A DNA stretch of 64,000 bases from Leptotrichia sp. oral taxon 847 (GTDB taxonomy: Bacteria > Fusobacteriota > Fusobacteriia > Fusobacteriales > Leptotrichiaceae): the NCBI RefSeq assembly GCF_001553645.1, contig NZ_CP014231.1:62001-126000 (forward strand). The letters are read 5' to 3'. Each line of letters starts with the position of its first letter. Position 1 is the first letter of the stretch. The translations under genes and the position numbers were made by a program. Shown here one piece after another: positions 2,599 through 44,831 of this stretch. Below the pieces are notes generated by a model, which saw only the letters and a program-made list of their open reading frames with translations, was not told the origin of the DNA and ran no database searches.

Positions 2599-2899
2599 AT
2601 GGAAATACAAAAAGAACTATTTGCACTTCAAGATAAAGAATATATGAAATTTTTAAGTAAATTAACGCTAAACATATCAGAGGATACAATCTGAAGAGTA
2701 TTATGTGAAAATGGTAGTTGCTTGGTTTTTTGCAACGGCACTTGCAAAATAGTGGGATTATACAGTAATTTATTTAGAAAATAACAGATTGGATGTTTTG
2801 GTGCATAATAAGACGATACAGAAGGCCCGAGAAAGTTTGAGGATTTTGGAAGACAAGAAGGGGTATTTGAAGAGGTTGAAAAGAAAGAAGGAGAATTAA
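2599..2899 (+). pseudogene. Decayed second copy of alkD (internal deletion)
   Basis: The first 29 codons (starting MEIQKELFALQDKEYMKF) mirror the N-terminus of the AlkD protein at 339. The sequence then jumps, after an in-frame-lost ATACAATC, to the AlkD C-terminal third (EEYYVKMVVAWFFATALAK, then a TAG where AlkD has Gln, then the VHNKTIQKARES region). About 370 bases of the middle are missing, the frame is lost at the junction, and a nonsense codon follows. The ribosome binding region upstream is also duplicated. It is not functional. Confidence 0.85.
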
Positions 2900-2903
2900 T
2901 TTA

Positions 2904-3713
2904 ATGAAAATCACAAAAGTTATGTTTGTAGGATTGATTTCTTTGTTGTGTTCAATAAATTCATTTACAAATACAAATTCTGAAAATGATTTTAAAAAGT
3001 ATGTACTAGAAAAATTAAAAGAAATAAAAAAAATTGATATTTATAACAATGATACGACTACTAAATATCACAATAGGAATGAAGAAAATTCAAAAAGGTC
3101 TGAATTAAAAAAATTTATAATTGATAATTTTCCTGAAAAAAGTAGCGAATTATTAGAAAAAAATAATGAAAGTTGGGATGCTGTTTGAAAAAATAATATT
3201 TCTTTTCTTGATGATTTAAAAAGAAAATATGGCTTTAATACGAATTTGTATGAATTTTATAGAGAAGAAGATAATAAGAAAATAAAAAAATTAATGGAGT
3301 TAGCTATAAAATTAAAAAACAAAAAAAGTTTATCTTTTGATCAATTGAGAAAGTCAAAAGAAGAATATGAAACGGAGAATAAAAAAATGAATGATAAGTA
3401 TACTGAATTACATGATTTAATGGGAGATGAATATGTAGATTATGGTGGAACGATTGGTTATGGATGCTATCCTAGACATTATTATAGCAATTTAGAAAAT
3501 TTTCAAGAAAAATGGTTAAAATTTAGAGAAGATGAAGCATTATTTTATTCTGAATTGACAAATAAAAAAGATGAGAAAATTTATTTTGGAAAACTTTTTG
3601 AAATAACAAAAAAACAGAACGAATACTTTCAGGATATTATAAATAGTATAAAAAAAGCGATAGATATAAAGAAGAAAAATATAAAAGACAAAATATTGAA
3701 ATTTGGGAAATAA
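2904..3713 (+). pseudogene. Secreted hypothetical protein interrupted by an in-frame TGA
   Basis: One continuous frame of 269 sense codons is interrupted only by TGA at 3186-3188. The first part (2904-3188) has a signal peptide (MKITKVMFVGLISLLCSINS) and a basic, helical mature region. The second part (3189-3713) continues in the same frame with KNNISFLDDLKRKYGF and then a coiled-coil-like helical domain. It has a small Tyr/Gly-rich patch (DYGGTIGYGCYPRHYYSN) near its centre. With no ribosome binding site before 3189, the second half is unlikely to be made separately; a TTG at 3246 is the only nearby start. I do not recognise the family. It could be a recent nonsense mutation or a sequencing error. 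Recoding is unlikely because TGA is used as a normal stop elsewhere here. Confidence 0.6.
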
Positions 3714-3755
3714 CGAATACTAGTAAAAAAGATTATGCAAAAGAAAGGAGATAAA

Positions 3756-6074
3756 ATGGAAAAAGAATTAAAATCTGAAACTTTATTTGAAAAAGAAAAC
3801 GCAAATATTAAAAAGACTGAAAATTCAAAAGTTAAAAATACGCTTTTTACTATTTTAAATGGTGAAAGAGTTGATTTAGAAATTGAAGAGATTTTCGATA
3901 GTAACAGGTTTTATGAGATAAAGGCTGTTACGTTTTCGGCTGAGGAAAGTTTTTTGAATAAATATTTGACTCTATTTAAAAGTGTTGATTTGATCATCGG
4001 AATACAAGATACGGATGTTCAAGCTAGGGGATTAAAAGCACTAAAAAATGAGACTAAAAATTTGATTGAAAGTCAGAAGCGGATTATAAAAAAAGAGCAA
4101 ATTAGATTTTTTGAAAATCTTTCAAGAGAAAATCAGGAAAATTTTATCAATGAAAGGTGGAAATTGAAAGTTCCAATAAATTCGACAATTCACAGTAAAT
4201 TTTATCTTTTAAAAAATGACTTTGAAACAAGATTGATTTTAGGGTCAGCCAATTTATCATTTCAGGCTTTTTCAAACAGCAGAAATCAATTTGAAAATAT
4301 TGTAATTTTTGATAATTCAGAATTATTTTTTCAATTTGAGAAATATTTTAGTGAAATTAACGCCACTTGTACAGATTTTATTACTTCGGCTTTGAAAAAG
4401 AAAGCACAAAATAAAATTGAAATTATGAAAGAAAATAACAGTAAAAATCAAGAAGAAACGTTTTCTGTGAGATTTACACAAGATGAAAGTGCTAAATTAC
4501 AAATTGACATTTCAAAAGACGTTGTTAAAAAATTTAACGACGTTATTGTCAAGGAAGAGGACAGCATTGCTTTTCCAATAATTGAAGAAATAAAATCGAT
4601 TGATGAAAAGCAGAAAATAATTGAAAGCGAAAAAAAAGAAGAGTTTGAGGTTGAGAAATTTGCTTATGAATTGTCGATTAATACGATTTCACGACAGGCT
4701 AAGAAAAAAGAGAGTATGATTGTAGCACCCGAAACATTTGCAAAAAAGATAAAACCTAAACTTGAAATTAAAATTGCACCGAAATTAAATCAAGCGACTC
4801 CTGAAAGAGAGTTGTTATTTTCAAAAGACACTGACCGTGGCTTTGGACGTTCAGGACTGTATATTGAAGAGAATGGAAGCACAAAACCTTTTGGGCAAAA
4901 AGCTGGAAAAGAAGAAATTCAAAATTCTATTGAAAGTATCGTAAGATTGATTGATAACTATAAAAAGTATGTAATTGACTACAATGATAATTATGGTTCA
5001 AGAATTATTGAGATTATTTTGTATACGTTTACTTCGCCCTTTATCCAAGATATTAGGTTTAAATTGGAATCCGATTCAGAAAAATTAGATGTTCCACAAT
5101 TTTTGTTTATTGGAGGAACTGCTGGTTCAGGAAAAAGTAATTTATTACAAATTTTACAAAAAATGCTGGGACTTTCAAAATCAAAGCCTATTTTGTACAA
5201 CAACATTATTCCGACAGGAAGAACGAAAAAAGCAGATACGATAACACAAATTCAATTGTGGATGAATGAAAATAACGTGGCTCCAATTTTGATTGACGAA
5301 ATTGATGAGGAATTTTTTTCAAATAAAGACAGAGGAAATAACTTAATTGTAAATGTTTCAAATCTTTCTACTTCAAATTTTGATTTCACACCTTGTTTTA
5401 TTGGTACGACAAATGCTTTGGAATATTCACTGCCACAACGGGCACAAAGAAGATCATATTATGTGAAAAATGATAAAGTTTTTGATACGGAGCTTAAGAA
5501 AAAATCTGTGAAAGCGTATACTGAAGTACTAGAAATTATTAATGACACTCTTTTTCAAGATTTCGTTATTCGATTTGCAGAAAAGTTGACAGATGATAAT
5601 TTGAGCTGGAAAAATTATTCGCTACATTCTTCGACTGGATTGATAGATTTCCTTTATTGGTCACGTGAAATTTTTAAGGAGTATTTTAAAATCGCCGGAA
5701 TTGAGTTGCCAGCGTGGTTTCCTGAAACTAGATATGATGATACTGTAGAAAATAATCAGTCTTTATGGAGAAAATTATATGAATATAATCGTCAAGATTT
5801 TAAAGTGCAAAAAGAAAAAGGTGTATATTTGTTTAGACTAAAAAGTTTGGATAGTGAAGAAAGCCAGAGTAACAGATTCGGGACAAAAATCCTTCCATCG
5901 ACAAAATATTTGAATGCGTTATCGCAAAAATGTAAGAATGATAACAATTCTTCGGACATTATTGAGATAAAAATAAAAGAATTTCACAGATGGATAGAAG
6001 TGCCTATTCCAAAGGAACTAGAACCTAAAAAAACGATTTTTAATTTCTTTAAAAAAAATAAAAATGAAAAATAA
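3756..6074 (+). CDS. PLD-like nuclease fused to AAA+ ATPase
   Basis: This is a 772-residue protein in three parts. Residues about 40-210 form a single phospholipase D-type half-site: H146-x-K148-(x6)-D155 in TIHSKFYLLKND, followed by GSANLS (163-168) and a downstream Glu near 180. Residues about 210-400 are a charged, low-complexity linker. Residues about 400-650 are an AAA+-type ATPase with Walker A GTAGSGKS (454-461), Walker B ILIDEIDEE (Asp514, Glu515), a sensor-1-like IGTTNA and an arginine-rich RAQRRS. The start at 3756 has AAAGGAG at the right distance, unlike the earlier ATG at 3735. One PLD half-site implies dimerisation, as in other bacterial PLD nucleases. A nuclease coupled to an ATPase suggests nucleic-acid processing or phage defence, but this is inference and I do not know a named family with this exact architecture. 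Confidence 0.8.
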   Translation: MEKELKSETLFEKENANIKKTENSKVKNTLFTILNGERVDLEIEEIFDSNRFYEIKAVTFSAEESFLNKYLTLFKSVDLIIGIQDTDVQARGLKALKNETKNLIESQKRIIKKEQIRFFENLSRENQENFINERWKLKVPINSTIHSKFYLLKNDFETRLILGSANLSFQAFSNSRNQFENIVIFDNSELFFQFEKYFSEINATCTDFITSALKKKAQNKIEIMKENNSKNQEETFSVRFTQDESAKLQIDISKDVVKKFNDVIVKEEDSIAFPIIEEIKSIDEKQKIIESEKKEEFEVEKFAYELSINTISRQAKKKESMIVAPETFAKKIKPKLEIKIAPKLNQATPERELLFSKDTDRGFGRSGLYIEENGSTKPFGQKAGKEEIQNSIESIVRLIDNYKKYVIDYNDNYGSRIIEIILYTFTSPFIQDIRFKLESDSEKLDVPQFLFIGGTAGSGKSNLLQILQKMLGLSKSKPILYNNIIPTGRTKKADTITQIQLWMNENNVAPILIDEIDEEFFSNKDRGNNLIVNVSNLSTSNFDFTPCFIGTTNALEYSLPQRAQRRSYYVKNDKVFDTELKKKSVKAYTEVLEIINDTLFQDFVIRFAEKLTDDNLSWKNYSLHSSTGLIDFLYWSREIFKEYFKIAGIELPAWFPETRYDDTVENNQSLWRKLYEYNRQDFKVQKEKGVYLFRLKSLDSEESQSNRFGTKILPSTKYLNALSQKCKNDNNSSDIIEIKIKEFHRWIEVPIPKELEPKKTIFNFFKKNKNEK

Positions 6075-39527: not shown

Positions 39528-40184
39528 CTAATTTTTTTCTCCGCCCATTTTTTCCTGTTTTACTTTGTGATCAATCACATGTCTTTTAGCAAGTTCATCT
39601 TTCACATCTTGAATAGTAAGCCCCTGTTCAATCATTAAAACCAAAGTATGATAATATAAATCTGCAATTTCATATCTCAATTCATCATTATCGTTATTTT
39701 TAGCACCGATTATAACTTCTGTACACTCTTCCCCAACTTTTTTTAGAATTTTATCAAGCCCTTTTTCAAACAAATAAGTCGTGTACGATTTTTCACTTGG
39801 ATTAATTTTTCTATCTTTTATCAATTCATAAAGTTTTTCAGGTGTAAAACTGCTATAATCTTCCGCTTCAAACATCGAATTAAAAAAACAGCTCTCAGCG
39901 CCAGTATGACAGGCAGGCCCATCCTTTTTCACTTCCACAAGCAAAGCATCTGCATCGCAGTCATATTTTATTGAAACAACATTCTGATAATTTCCCGAAG
40001 TTTCTCCTTTTAACCAAAGTTTTTGTCTACTTCTACTGAAAAAACAAGTTTTCTTATCTCTTAAAGTTATTTCTAGACTTTCTTTATTCATATACGCAAG
40101 TGTCAGCACTTCTTTTGTATAATAATCTTGTATTATTGCGGGAACAAGCCCTTTTTCGTCAAATTTTATTTGTTCTATATTCAT
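39528..40184 (-). CDS. hisIE: Phosphoribosyl-AMP cyclohydrolase / phosphoribosyl-ATP pyrophosphatase
   Basis: This is a 218-residue bifunctional enzyme for steps two and three of histidine synthesis. The N-terminal HisI half has YMNKESLEITL, SRSRQKLWLKGETSGN and the Zn site YDCDADALLVEV with GPACHTG. The C-terminal HisE half (from about residue 120) shows EKSYTTYLFEKGLDKILKK and EECTEVIIGAKN. The ATG lies three bases after the stop of the HepT toxin gene, and its ribosome binding site (AGAGG) is inside hepT, so translation is coupled to the toxin-antitoxin module. Confidence 0.95.
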   Translation of the reverse strand: MNIEQIKFDEKGLVPAIIQDYYTKEVLTLAYMNKESLEITLRDKKTCFFSRSRQKLWLKGETSGNYQNVVSIKYDCDADALLVEVKKDGPACHTGAESCFFNSMFEAEDYSSFTPEKLYELIKDRKINPSEKSYTTYLFEKGLDKILKKVGEECTEVIIGAKNNDNDELRYEIADLYYHTLVLMIEQGLTIQDVKDELAKRHVIDHKVKQEKMGGEKN

Positions 40185-40187
40185 TTT

Positions 40188-40562
40188 TTACCTCTTTTCT
40201 AATTTTTCTCTTAACACATAAATATATTTTAGCAAATCTTCCATTTCAAAAATAGAAACTTCATAAAGCATTTCCAAACTAGTTCCCCAATATTCATGAA
40301 TAAGTCTGTTTCTCATTCCTTTTATATTTTCCCAATAAGAATAATTTGAAAAAGTCTCTATTAAAATATTTTTATCTAATTTTTGAATTTGTGAAACAGC
40401 TTCACCTATTTTTTCTAACTGTCTTTCTATATAACCAATTGTCTTCCTATCATTAATAAACCCTTCAAATGAAATTTCTGAAACCTCATCTTGTATTATA
40501 TCAATACATTCTTCAATATCATAAGTAAATTGTAATATGTTTCTTCTTCCTTTTTTACACAT
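40188..40562 (-). CDS. hepT: HepT-like toxin (HEPN/DUF86)
   Basis: This 124-residue helical HEPN-domain protein has the RNase motif R-x4-H-x-Y (RNRLIHEYWG) near residue 90. HepT RNase activity is silenced by AMPylation of the motif's Tyr by the cognate MntA. It overlaps the mntA stop by eight bases (ATGTGTAA). It sits directly in front of hisIE. Confidence 0.85.
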   Translation of the reverse strand: MCKKGRRNILQFTYDIEECIDIIQDEVSEISFEGFINDRKTIGYIERQLEKIGEAVSQIQKLDKNILIETFSNYSYWENIKGMRNRLIHEYWGTSLEMLYEVSIFEMEDLLKYIYVLREKLEKR

Positions 40563-40881
40563 AAATTACACTCCGCAAAATTTCTTCCTTTATCTCATCT
40601 TTGTATTTCTGAACTTTCGGATTTTTAAATTTATATTCAAACATACTTTCATCAACTAAATCTACTTTTTTTTGAAAAATTTCTTCCAATTTTTTATGTA
40701 AACTACAAAAATTTTGATACATTCCCTTCTTAAATTCCATTTTTACAAGAATATCAATATCGCTATCATTTGTATTAATATTTTTTGAAAAACTTCCAAA
40801 AAGACCTAATTTTAAAATCGAATATTTCTCTTTATTAATCTCTTTTAGTTTTTTTAAAATTTCTTCTTTTCTTATATTCAT
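40555..40881 (-). CDS. mntA: MntA-like nucleotidyltransferase antitoxin
   Basis: This 108-residue minimal nucleotidyltransferase has the G-S-x10-D-x-D motif (GSFSKNINTNDSDIDILV) near residues 29-46, which binds ATP and Mg for AMPylating HepT. The usual Arg-Gly after GSF is Lys-Asn here, but the metal ligands are intact. First gene of an mntA-hepT-hisIE-yhfC unit. Confidence 0.85.
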   Translation of the reverse strand: MNIRKEEILKKLKEINKEKYSILKLGLFGSFSKNINTNDSDIDILVKMEFKKGMYQNFCSLHKKLEEIFQKKVDLVDESMFEYKFKNPKVQKYKDEIKEEILRSVIYV

Positions 40882-40933
40882 CTTTTTGTCCTTTCTAAAA
40901 ATTCAAAATTTAGTTTTATTGTGACATAATTTA

Positions 40934-40942
40934 TGGTATAAT
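40934..40942 (+). promoter_or_regulatory. Extended -10 promoter for the Phd/ParE pair
   Basis: TGGTATAAT: TGn followed by TATAAT at 40937-40942. The start at 40980 is 38 bases downstream. The divergent mntA start lies 53 bases to the left, so both TA operons share this control region. Confidence 0.55.
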
Positions 40943-40979
40943 ATAGATATAAATAATACATAAAGGAGTGTGTTTACTT

Positions 40980-41237
40980 ATGAAAATTATCCCTATTCGT
41001 GATTTAAAAAATACAGTCGAAATTGAAAAATACTGTTCCGAAGAACAAGGGCCTGTATTTATAACTAAAAACGGTTATGGACGCCTAGTTGTAATGGATA
41101 TTGAATATTATGAACGAACTATGCGTGAAATTGAAGAAGCAAAACTTCTGCTTGATGGAATAAAAGATGTTCAAAATAACAATATTTTAGACGGCAAAAA
41201 TACTATTAATGAATTAAGAGGTAAATATGGAATCTAA
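40980..41237 (+). CDS. Phd/YefM-type antitoxin
   Basis: This 85-residue protein begins MKIIPIRDLKNTVEIEKYCSE and has FITKNGYGRLVVMDIEYYER, the usual Phd/YefM DNA-binding fold, with a C-terminal helix (NTINELRGKYGI) that would wrap the toxin. The ATG at 40980 is favoured over GTG 40968, which lies inside the AAAGGAG site. It overlaps the toxin start by 11 bases and probably represses its own promoter. Confidence 0.85.
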   Translation: MKIIPIRDLKNTVEIEKYCSEEQGPVFITKNGYGRLVVMDIEYYERTMREIEEAKLLLDGIKDVQNNNILDGKNTINELRGKYGI

Positions 41238-41559
41238 ATATTCTTATCAATTTACTAAAAGTGCTAAAAATGATTTAGAACAAATTCTTCATTACATCAA
41301 AATAGATTTAGGCAATCCAACAGCTGCATTTTCTTTTATGAATAAATTTCAAGAAGCTGTTAGTAATATTCAATTATTTCCAAACAGTTGTCCAAAAGTT
41401 ATAAATAAATTTTTATCTGAATCTATTATTATTAGAAAAAAATTGATTAGCAACTACGTTTTATATTATTCTGTAAATGATAATTTAAAAAGTATAATTA
41501 TTTTGCGTATTGTTTTTAGCCATAGAGATATAGACTCTATTTTTAAAAATAAAAACTAA
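41227..41559 (+). CDS. ParE/RelE-superfamily toxin
   Basis: This 110-residue protein has the ParE-type layout: YQFTKSAKNDLEQILHYI (strand, helix), GNPTAAFSFMNKFQEAVSNI, FPNSCPKV and a C-terminal strand region LRIVFSHRDIDSIF. The FPNSCP helix-end motif favours ParE (gyrase poison) over RelE (mRNase). The overlap with the antitoxin gene supports a type II module. Terminated at 41561. Confidence 0.85.
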   Translation: MESKYSYQFTKSAKNDLEQILHYIKIDLGNPTAAFSFMNKFQEAVSNIQLFPNSCPKVINKFLSESIIIRKKLISNYVLYYSVNDNLKSIIILRIVFSHRDIDSIFKNKN

Positions 41560-41560
41560 T

Positions 41561-41587
41561 GAGAGATTATCTTATCTCTCTTTTTTA
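41561..41587 (+). terminator. Terminator after ParE-type toxin
   Basis: GAGAGAT/ATCTCTC stem with a 6-base loop and TTTTTTATTT directly after. Confidence 0.8.
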
Positions 41588-41611
41588 TTTTAAAATTAAA
41601 TATCAACTATA

Positions 41612-42367
41612 TCAAATCCTCATTTCCACTCCATTATCCCTCAAATACCTTTTCAGCTCCATAATTTCCACTTCTTTAAAATGAAAAATCGAAGCCGCCA
41701 GCCCTGCATCAATTCCTGATATTTTAAATAATTCCTTAAAATGTTCCATATTTCCAGCTCCACCTGATGCAATTATCGGAATTGATAATTTTTTAGCCAA
41801 AATTGATAAAAGTTCTAAATCAAAGCCAGTTTTAACGCCATCCGTATCAATACTGTTCACGACAACTTCCCCAGCGCCGTTTTCCTGCCCCTGCACAAAC
41901 CACTCTATCGCATCAATTCCAGTATTTTCCCTGCCACCTTTTGCAAAAACTTTAAATTTTCCATCAACTCGCTTTACATCGACTGACAAAACAACACACT
42001 GATTTCCATATTTTTTTGCAGCTTCTTCAATTAATTTTGGATTTCTTATTGCTCCTGAATTGACACTCACTTTATCTGCCCCCGCTTTTAGCACTCTGTC
42101 AAAATCATCTAGTGTGTTTATCCCGCCGCCAACAGTAAGTGGAATAAATATCTGACTTGCCACTTCCTTTAAAATATCAGTAAAAAGCCCTCTTTCCTCA
42201 ACAGTTGCTGTAATGTCATAAAAAACAAGTTCATCTGCACCAGATTTATTATAAAACTTTGCTAACTCAACAGGATTGTCAACCTCTTTTATCCCAGTAA
42301 AATTAACGCCTTTTACCACTTTCCCGTTTCTCACGTCCAAACAGGGAACAATTCTCTTTGCAAGCAT
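41612..42367 (-). CDS. hisF: Imidazole glycerol phosphate synthase cyclase subunit
   Basis: This 251-residue TIM barrel pairs with HisH to make imidazole glycerol phosphate and AICAR. The start MLAKRIVPCLDVRNGKVVKG is the family N-terminus; a GTG 12 bases earlier is less likely. Catalytic Asp in PCLDV and the second Asp in NSIDTDGVKTGFD are present, with SVNSGAI and ASGGAGN phosphate-binding loops. Follows hisA by about 60 bases. Confidence 0.96.
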   Translation of the reverse strand: MLAKRIVPCLDVRNGKVVKGVNFTGIKEVDNPVELAKFYNKSGADELVFYDITATVEERGLFTDILKEVASQIFIPLTVGGGINTLDDFDRVLKAGADKVSVNSGAIRNPKLIEEAAKKYGNQCVVLSVDVKRVDGKFKVFAKGGRENTGIDAIEWFVQGQENGAGEVVVNSIDTDGVKTGFDLELLSILAKKLSIPIIASGGAGNMEHFKELFKISGIDAGLAASIFHFKEVEIMELKRYLRDNGVEMRI

Positions 42368-42426
42368 TTTTACACCCACTTTCTTTTAATATGCAATATT
42401 TATTTCATTTGAACAATTTCAAAATA

Positions 42427-43143
42427 TTATTTGCTAACTTCTAACACTTCTTTCAAATCAAGATTTCCAGAATAAATCGCTTTTCCAACAATAGCTCCAT
42501 AAACTCCATTTTCATTAAGTTCCTTTATTTCATCTAAAAATGTAATTCCGCCTGAAGCTATAATATCTGATTTTACTATTTTGGACAACTTTTTATAAAT
42601 TTCAAGATTTGTACCATTTAACATTCCATCTTTTGAGATGTCAGTATAAATTATTGTTTTTACTCCGATATCCGATAATTTTTTGCAAAATTCAACTGAA
42701 TTTAATTCAACAGTTTCAGTCCATCCCTTTACAGCAACTTTTTCATCTTTCGCATCCACAGAAACTGCGATTTTATCTCCATATTTTTTCACCATTTCTC
42801 TTAAAAACTCTTCATTTTCAACAGCAATCGTTCCCAAAATAACTCTATTTACACCAAGTTCAATATATTTTTTTATTCTTTCTTCATCACGGATTCCGCC
42901 ACCAACTTGAACAAAAAAATCACTCTTTTCTACAAGTTCCTTTATAACTTCATAATTCTTAGTATTTCCATCTTTTGCCCCATCCAAATCTACAATATGA
43001 AGATTTTTTGAATTATTCTTATTAAAGAAATCCAAAACTTCGACAGGATTTTTAAAAAACACTTCCACTTGATTATAATCGCCTTGTTTTAATCTAACTG
43101 CCTGTCCGTTATGTAAGTCTATCGCTGGGAAAATTTCTATCAT
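42427..43143 (-). CDS. hisA: ProFAR isomerase (HisA)
   Basis: This 238-residue TIM-barrel isomerase opens the ribose of ProFAR to PRFAR, the substrate of HisHF. Motifs: PAIDLHNGQAVRLKQGD (catalytic Asp), VGGGIRDEE, YTDISKDGMLNG (second catalytic Asp) and ASGGITFLDE. AAGGAG lies before the start, with a TATAAT-like box about 30 bases upstream, so it may be read from its own promoter after the terminator at 43214. Confidence 0.96.
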   Translation of the reverse strand: MIEIFPAIDLHNGQAVRLKQGDYNQVEVFFKNPVEVLDFFNKNNSKNLHIVDLDGAKDGNTKNYEVIKELVEKSDFFVQVGGGIRDEERIKKYIELGVNRVILGTIAVENEEFLREMVKKYGDKIAVSVDAKDEKVAVKGWTETVELNSVEFCKKLSDIGVKTIIYTDISKDGMLNGTNLEIYKKLSKIVKSDIIASGGITFLDEIKELNENGVYGAIVGKAIYSGNLDLKEVLEVSK

Positions 43144-43213
43144 AATTTAATCTCCTTAAAATATTATATACTTTTATTTTATAACTCTATTTTTTACGTA
43201 CTGCAAAATTTAT

Positions 43214-43242
43214 CAAAAAAAGTTAGGTCATTATTCTAACTT
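43214..43242 (-). terminator. Terminator between the 43263 gene and hisA
   Basis: Read leftward: AAGTTAG, 9-base loop, CTAACTT, then a run of T. It separates hisH plus the hypothetical gene from hisA-hisF. Confidence 0.7.
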
Positions 43243-43262
43243 TGATAAAAACTCTCAAAATA

Positions 43263-44117
43263 TTAATCAAGCATTCTTATTTTATCCAGATTTTTTTGAA
43301 ATATTTTCTTATTATTGTAAAAATTATTTTTATTCGCCTTTGCCAGTTCTGATTTTATATACCAGTTTTGATATCTATTGTAATACAATATTTCTTCACT
43401 TGGCTTATTTTTTCCTTCAAAATTTTCATAATAAAAATCAATTGCATCCTGCGTACGGTTCTCATTTAAATAAAAACTTATCGCAAACCATCCCATAGTT
43501 AATTTATATGCCCACGCCTGCTCGTCAGAAATATGTGATTCTTCCGTTTTTGTTTTATCATCGCACATTTTCATAATGGAATTTAAACTTGCAAGTGCTG
43601 CTTTCTCATCAGTTTTCAAAACATTCCAAATGGCATCTTCTCCTATTGCATATGTTACAGCAATTCTAGTGATTAGATAATCAGGATATTCTTTTTTAAG
43701 TTTTTCATAATTTTTATCAAACGCTGCTGTATCTCCTTTGTTAGAATAGTACATATTTGAAAAAAATAATTTTGACACTTCATAAGGATTATATTTTTCA
43801 TACCGCTTTAAATTATTTAATTTTTCAGCATCACTTTTTCCAAGTGCATTATAAATATTTATCAAATTTTCTGATAATACAAAATTTTTCTCATTCTTTT
43901 TCAGCAATTCTTCAATTTTTAATGCCAGATTTTTTACTTTTTCCCTATCAGGTTCACTCACTACATTAGGTATTTCTTTATCCAGTTCTATTGTTTTTAC
44001 TATTATTTCCTGAGAAACTCCTAATTTTGACAAATCCTGCCTTATCATTTCACTTCGGCTTTTAGCATTCATTTTCACTGCTACAAGAACACTCATCAAT
44101 AATATTATCTTCTTCAT
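43263..44117 (-). CDS. Exported protein of unknown function within the his cluster
   Basis: This is a 284-residue protein with a signal peptide (KKIILLMSVLVAVKMNAKS; probably cleaved after Ala). The mature part is helical with TPR-like spacing (YNPYEVSKLFFSNMYYSNKG, AWAYKLTMGWFAISFYLNEN). I do not recognise the family. It is not a known histidine enzyme and is followed by a terminator. Confidence 0.7.
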   Translation of the reverse strand: MKKIILLMSVLVAVKMNAKSRSEMIRQDLSKLGVSQEIIVKTIELDKEIPNVVSEPDREKVKNLALKIEELLKKNEKNFVLSENLINIYNALGKSDAEKLNNLKRYEKYNPYEVSKLFFSNMYYSNKGDTAAFDKNYEKLKKEYPDYLITRIAVTYAIGEDAIWNVLKTDEKAALASLNSIMKMCDDKTKTEESHISDEQAWAYKLTMGWFAISFYLNENRTQDAIDFYYENFEGKNKPSEEILYYNRYQNWYIKSELAKANKNNFYNNKKIFQKNLDKIRMLD

Positions 44118-44201
44118 AAATACCTCTTTTCCAATAAAAAATAAATTATCAAAACCAACCCAAAAATGAATAAATTAAGTAAAATAATTACAATTTCACT
44201 T

Positions 44202-44831
44202 TTACTTTACTAATTCTCCCCAATTTTTCAATAACTTCAATCCAGTATCACCGCTTTTTTCAGGATGAAACTGCATTCCATAGACATTTTCATTTTTTAC
44301 AATTCCAGGTATTTTTGTTCCGTACTCTGAATATGTGACAATGTTTTTCATATCAGTTTTTGCAAAATATGAATGAACATAATAAACATATTCATTATTG
44401 TCTACATCTTTTAAAATTTTATCATCCTTAAATCTCTCATTTATAATTAAACTATTCCATCCCATATGAGGTATTTTCAAATCAGAGTTTTCTGGAATAT
44501 ATTTTTTTATCTCCTCAACAGTTCCATTTATAAGCCCAAGCCCTTCATATTCACCATATTCATAACTTTTCTCAAAAAGCATTTGCATTCCAAGGCAAAT
44601 TCCTAAAAACGGCTTCCCATTTTTCGCTTCACTTATCAAAGTCTCTTTTAGCCCGTATTTTTCCAAATTCCCAACAGCATCTCTAAAGGCCCCAACTCCT
44701 GGCAATATTATCCCCTTAGCATTTTTTATCTCTTCAATATCGTTAGTCAGCTTTGTATCCAGTCCGACATAGTTTAAAGAAGAAAGTAAGGAAAAAAGAT
44801 TTCCTACTCCATAATCAATCACTGCTATCAT
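44202..44831 (-). CDS. hisH: Imidazole glycerol phosphate synthase glutaminase subunit
   Basis: This 209-residue class I glutaminase supplies ammonia to HisF. The triad is visible: Cys in PFLGICLGMQMLFE near residue 80, His in GMQFHPEKSG near 190 and Glu two residues on. DYGVGNLFSL near the start and GVGAFRDAV form the oxyanion/interface region. It is 17 bases after the MarR gene, so probably cotranscribed. Confidence 0.96.
   Translation of the reverse strand: MIAVIDYGVGNLFSLLSSLNYVGLDTKLTNDIEEIKNAKGIILPGVGAFRDAVGNLEKYGLKETLISEAKNGKPFLGICLGMQMLFEKSYEYGEYEGLGLINGTVEEIKKYIPENSDLKIPHMGWNSLIINERFKDDKILKDVDNNEYVYYVHSYFAKTDMKNIVTYSEYGTKIPGIVKNENVYGMQFHPEKSGDTGLKLLKNWGELVK

Follow-up and report, generated by a model that had tools for sequence, protein, structure and literature searches.

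A Leptotrichia PLD nuclease-AAA+ ATPase related to the haloarchaeal Argonaute partner AgaP, with a possible role in restricting invading DNA

What might a bacterial protein that joins a single PLD nuclease site to an AAA+ ATPase act on, and for what? The window analyzed here, the whole 64,000-nucleotide stretch of Leptotrichia sp. oral taxon 847 DNA, carries one intact gene for such a protein, 772 residues long. A first-pass annotation made from the sequence alone had placed a PLD half-site and a complete AAA+ core in this one protein, and the reading frame, motifs and coordinates proved to be as it claimed. A ribosome-binding site, AAAGGAG, lies at 3744–3750 ahead of the ATG at 3756; a start at 3735, which would give a longer ORF, is less likely. 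The protein has a single-site PLD (HKD) nuclease at its N-terminus and an AAA+ ATPase at its C-terminus, joined by a largely helical middle. The middle region, earlier described as a long linker, is present, but in the AlphaFold2 model it is partly folded helix rather than disordered.

Table 1. Features of the PLD nuclease-AAA+ ATPase gene and its decayed neighbors; positions are those of the window.
Feature	Position	Strand	Basis
Decayed second alkD copy, internal deletion of ~380 bp	2599–2904	+	blastn against intact alkD of a congener
LprI-like secreted-protein gene, in-frame TGA at 3186–3188	2904–3713	+	ORF list, Pfam, congener comparison
PLD nuclease-AAA+ ATPase gene	3756–6074	+	ORF, motifs, Pfam, AlphaFold2 model
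N-terminal PLD nuclease domain, ~residues 29–230	3840–4445	+	Pfam PLDc_2, RE_NgoFVII; AlphaFold2/Foldseek match to NgoAVII R-protein and SauUSI
HxK motif H146-S147-K148; counterpart of AgaP H105/K107	4191–4199	+	H in 28/28, K/R in 28/28 homologues; AgaP alignment
GSxN motif G163–N166; counterpart of AgaP G157/S158/N160	4242–4253	+	Homologue conservation; AgaP alignment
E180, conserved acidic PLD-site residue; Asn in AgaP	4293–4295	+	27/28 homologues
Middle region, mostly helical, low-confidence loops	4446–4880	+	AlphaFold2 model
Walker A GTAGSGKS, residues 454–461	5115–5138	+	G459, K460 invariant
Walker B ILIDE, residues 511–515	5286–5300	+	D514 in 28/28, E515 in 27/28 homologues
Sensor 1/SF3 motif C, TTN 551–553	5406–5414	+	N553 in 28/28 homologues; alignment with D5-type SF3 helicases
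R566, invariant Arg after sensor 1, candidate arginine finger	5451–5453	+	28/28 homologues
C-terminal small alpha/beta domain, ~residues 680–750, putatively winged-helix-like	5793–6005	+	AlphaFold2 models

HSKFYLLKND spans residues 146–155 of the nuclease, with GSANLS at 163–168, and IDEIDE occupies residues 513–518 of the ATPase. Across 28 diverse homologues H146, S164, G459, K460, D514, N553 and R566 are invariant, N166 and E180 are nearly so, and residue 148 is either Lys or Arg; because these catalytic residues are kept, both enzymatic halves look active. Pfam recognized PLDc_2 (1e-8) and RE_NgoFVII (PF09565, 2e-6, 27.7 bits against a cut-off of 23.8) above threshold, while the AAA part drew only weak, sub-threshold P-loop matches. 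No whole-protein model was found in PADLOC 2.0, Pfam, NCBIfam or PHROGs. The best PADLOC match, ZacB (E 2.6e-5), covered the PLD part only, in agreement with the earlier remark that this architecture could not be matched to a named system.

AlphaFold2, run with 28 homologues, produced a full-length model of usable quality (pLDDT 78); its model of the C-terminal half was good (pLDDT 87). When the PLD part was compared with the PDB by Foldseek, the NgoAVII restriction nuclease came first and SauUSI was among the top matches. The ATPase was harder to place. Sequence searches of the PDB assigned it to no class, and its nearest Foldseek structures were SCCmec Cch (query TM 0.45), ASFV PrimPol, SaPI5 Rep, MPXV E5 and SV40 T antigen; generic AAA+ proteins (RFC, Rix7, Vps4) reached similar E-values at lower TM. 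Matches in BFVD, where named, were mostly D5-like primase-helicases. In HHalign the ATPase profile matched D5-type SF3 helicases (Prob 68, E 5e-5) in an alignment spanning Walker A to the Asn/Arg motifs, and Walker A, Walker B, the motif C Asn and the downstream Arg follow in SF3 order. A VapE-type ATPase (Prob 2.7) and BrxL (Prob 0.6) were both rejected, and another ATPase scored 0.1. We therefore regard the D5/SF3-type helicases as the nearest class, a moderately supported best label rather than a proven one, weakened by the generic AAA+ proteins that also match the fold.

A tblastn search with a clostridial member of the family led to haloarchaeal plasmids, in two of which a Piwi gene immediately precedes the match. 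A Piwi gene followed by agaP is the arrangement of the haloarchaeal APAP systems, in which AgaP helps its Argonaute partner to eliminate plasmids and is described as a protein with an N-terminal PLD domain (PMC11442185). AgaP is toxic by itself, and either H105A or K107A is enough to remove the toxicity; with both substitutions (H105A/K107A) plasmid restriction is lost; that paper makes no mention of an ATPase half (PMC11442185). We located an ORF of Natrinema pellirubrum (L142:3960-6113, 717 aa) that has 9/9 of the residues numbered in PMC11442185 at identical positions. In the annotation of its plasmid, pNATPE02, this agaP ORF appears as no more than a hypothetical protein of 375 aa, and spurious genes on the reverse strand cover the N-terminal part.

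The relationship to AgaP extends along the full length. Our family profile aligned with the haloarchaeal set over 613 columns (HHalign Prob 100, E 7.4e-40), and hmmsearch with it recovered three other haloarchaeal members and two from lactobacillar plasmids, with E-values of 1e-41 to 1e-54, shuffled and reversed controls giving E 0.4 or worse. The C-terminal profile alone matched the haloarchaeal members at E 1e-34 to 1e-44. H105, K107, G157, S158 and N160 of AgaP align one to one with H146, K148, G163, S164 and N166 of the window protein. The C-terminal half of AgaP has the P-loop, Asp, Asn and Arg in place and is homologous to the ATPase half of the window protein. To our knowledge, this shared P-loop half of AgaP has been unreported so far. 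The two proteins are thus alike in having a single N-terminal HxK/GSxN PLD site and a C-terminal P-loop half, but they are only ~14% identical. Walker A reads GKG in AgaP, with Ser changed to Gly, against an intact GKS in the window protein, and AgaP has a ~50-residue insertion between HxK and GSxN, where the window protein has 14 residues from K148 to G163. AgaP also has a long-A prokaryotic Argonaute as operon partner, whereas the window protein has none: searching with a profile made from the haloarchaeal Piwi genes, we found no Piwi gene in the window or in the neighborhoods of the bacterial members, and an Argonaute partner for these was rejected.

How widespread is the family? An alignment-based scan of genomes yielded 37 loci; scanning genome and viral collections with one sequence alone gave no match. 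The family is sporadic, occurring in ~1–2% of sampled species, with any match in 9/98 Fusobacteriota and 5/399 of the phylum sampled around the clostridial member. In the tree the clade of the window protein falls among Lactobacillaceae and Anaerococcus with 100/100 support, apart from the other fusobacterial copy, and this nesting makes it probable that the clade was acquired by transfer from Bacillota. A second, divergent PLD-AAA subfamily of ~740–770 aa (L127, L129, L134, L136, L138) is patchy in Limosilactobacillus, and similar proteins occur on plasmids of L. salivarius and L. intestinalis.

Within the genus of the window, 7/13 species have the gene; six congeners share it, five with intact copies (87–90% identity) and one with a frameshift. 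With the purifying selection described below, this puts the gene well outside what chance would give. All seven copies occupy a single position in the his operon, downstream of hisB, and congeners lacking the gene carry other cargo there. In one of these, ~45 nt of the start of the gene persist after alkD as a deletion scar. In one congener a type III-A CRISPR operon lies two genes from the PLD-AAA gene; at L018:10235-18000, in a congener, such an operon (Cas10, Csm3) is inserted at this his-operon site, preceded by a DUF1703-type ATPase. The decayed neighbors reported in the window proved real, namely the deleted second alkD copy and the TGA-broken LprI-like gene; the latter frame is intact in a congener, and the break looks recent since the remainder of the window frame is well kept. 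The his operon is itself split in the window, with hisB at 1010–1600 and hisH, hisA, hisF and hisI ~38 kb away on the other strand (39528–44831); congeners keep the his genes together around the PLD-AAA site.

Our next question was whether the neighborhoods point to defense. In the branch of shorter proteins (660–710 aa), defense operons lie within five genes at 5/11 independent loci, compared with 0/17 random windows of the same genomes (Fisher p 0.005, a value that depends on a short/long split drawn after seeing the tree). These are BREX, with the PLD-AAA gene 91 bp after brxL (L062); type III RM (L066); an McrB-like gene matched by PADLOC, with an McrC-like partner recognized by inspection (L124); a Shango-like/BrxD-BrxHI set with a PD-Lambda-4-like gene (L125); and an McrB-like gene with an SbcCD-like pair (L063). 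SbcCD/Mre11-Rad50-like pairs are found beside or close to family members of three lineages far apart from one another, Clostridiaceae, Arcobacter and Halobaculum (L062, L063, L143). The long-form branch, which includes the window protein, sits mostly in ordinary surroundings and shows no significant linkage, with 1/8 loci near a defense operon (p 0.32), the one case being an extra L. kribbianus copy with Cas9 nearby. With all loci pooled the result is borderline (5/20 vs. 0/17, p 0.05); the loci behind the pooled figure differ slightly from those behind the branch figures, and L003, an Arcobacter plasmid locus with no defense match, is not among the 11. Linkage to defense genes, a check proposed in the first-pass annotation, is seen in the sister branch and not significantly in the window's own.

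We consider it somewhat probable that the protein is an ATP-driven PLD nuclease, a stand-alone bacterial member of the AgaP family, that would restrict extrachromosomal or invading DNA. This reading is favored by the homology to AgaP, the restriction-type PLD fold, the active-looking motor and the defense neighbors of the sister branch. By analogy with the PLD superfamily, two PLD half-sites would probably pair to form one metal-independent active site, and DNA would be cleaved via a phosphohistidine. The AAA+ module would probably oligomerize, load on replicating or single-strand-containing DNA, hydrolyze ATP, and license and position cleavage, and it would fill the targeting or restraining role that Argonaute has for AgaP. 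DNA as the substrate, coupling to ATP, the oligomeric state and an immune role in this organism are all predicted here. The reading is weakened by the low identity to AgaP and by the latter's changed Walker A Ser and Argonaute partner. The anti-invader nuclease/NTPase of the first-pass annotation is partly supported, by the full-length homology to AgaP and by the defense operons beside one branch, and lacks significant linkage in its own branch.

A less probable but serious rival is that the window's branch was domesticated as a genome-maintenance nuclease-helicase acting at stalled forks, DNA ends or lesions, any defense role belonging to the other branch. Its strength comes from Limosilactobacillus, where 53/54 species keep an orthologue in a conserved metabolic, ordinary chromosomal neighborhood at a dN/dS of 0.02–0.05, as low as for housekeeping neighbors, and from the missing defense linkage of the branch. 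Such near-universal presence under strong constraint is unusual for a defense gene and also counts against restriction. The gene is under strong purifying selection in the window's genus as well (dN/dS 0.04–0.07, with synonymous divergence often near saturation, compared with 0.02–0.04 for hisB and 0.07–0.22 for alkD). Further points in favor are alkD, a DNA repair gene, which adjoins the gene in several congeners, and SbcCD/NurA-like neighbors in distant relatives. However, the gene is absent or deleted in 6/13 congeners, with the deletion remnant and the frameshifted copy noted above, and it occurs in only 6 of ~286 other sampled Lactobacillaceae genomes, three copies being broken. A repair function that was universal would be lost less readily. 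The observation that the first-pass annotation expected to count against defense, universal presence in the genus in a housekeeping context, was thus made by half: the genus is patchy yet uses one conserved his site, and near-universality is seen in Limosilactobacillus.

Regulation was also surveyed. SOS control was rejected, since upstream of the homologues just one LexA/DinR-like match turned up, a weak one with two mismatches allowed, at the extra copy linked to Cas9 in L. kribbianus. A promoter-like CTTGCAAAA-N6-TAAATANNCGAAAATA element precedes only the PLD-AAA gene at L042 and L044-L053 and is conserved across much of Limosilactobacillus; tried as a marker of a regulon, it revealed none, since it occurs once per genome where found.

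It is unlikely that the gene is a factor of plasmids or other mobile elements, serving inter-element competition or replication, with an SF3-type replication ancestry and chromosomal copies left as relics of integrated elements. Copies do occur on plasmids of Arcobacter, Athalassotoga, L. salivarius, haloarchaea and Aquifex, some near rep or par genes, and the ATPase resembles mobile-element replicative helicases. However, the Arcobacter, Athalassotoga and L. salivarius plasmids have rep genes of their own, and the chromosomal copies are strongly constrained with no mobile genes alongside. Phage carriage was rejected, as no phage record or viral contig has a PLD-AAA gene. That the gene is a passenger of a variable his-operon spot, either without function or acquired only recently, as the differing cargo of congeners and the decayed neighbors might suggest, is very improbable and largely refuted by the selection analysis, the catalytic residues all being kept.

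More tentatively, the restriction reading may be extended to the whole family. AgaP could be one twig of a wide bacterial and archaeal PLD-AAA+ family whose bacterial members restrict plasmid and phage DNA without Argonaute, a motor like SF3 replicative helicases, captured from mobile elements, finding replicating foreign DNA; one member would have become a core gene of Limosilactobacillus. A previously uncharacterized, unmodeled bacterial protein is now tied to AgaP, the only experimentally tested relative that we found, suggesting that having Argonaute as a partner is atypical of the family. AgaP in turn gains an overlooked motor-like domain, and with it a testable account of how plasmid DNA is singled out. 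A core barrier to plasmids or phages is predicted in Limosilactobacillus, where a knockout could alter transformability, and the family may illustrate a route from defense gene to fixed core gene.

Among known systems, the closest PLD folds are those of the restriction nucleases of the NgoAVII/SauUSI/BfiI type, consistent with the RE_NgoFVII match. In SauUSI the nuclease is accompanied by an SF2 helicase and in BfiI by a DNA-recognition domain, and we know of no SF3-like AAA+ module in either. Unlike enzymes of the BfiI/NgoFVII type, the window protein ends in an AAA+ module rather than a sequence-specific DNA-recognition domain, and the neighboring window ORFs that were scanned gave no methylase-family match that could represent a cognate methylase. 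With D5-type SF3 and mobile-element helicases (SCCmec Cch, SaPI5 Rep, the D5-like proteins of poxviruses and ASFV) it shares the AAA+ core, Walker A and B, the motif C Asn and the Arg, a remote likeness at Prob 68, but here the ATPase is joined to a PLD nuclease and not, as in those helicases, to a primase or origin-binding domain. BrxL-HKD of type I BREX likewise combines an AAA+ ATPase and an HKD nuclease in one defense protein (PMC12839542), and a Lys-to-Arg HKD variant is also found in some PLD-AAA+ homologues. The domain order is opposite, with the HKD nuclease C-terminal in BrxL-HKD and the PLD domain N-terminal in the window protein, and the PADLOC BrxL model does not match the latter; a PLD-AAA+ gene can nevertheless adjoin an ordinary BrxL, as it does at L062.
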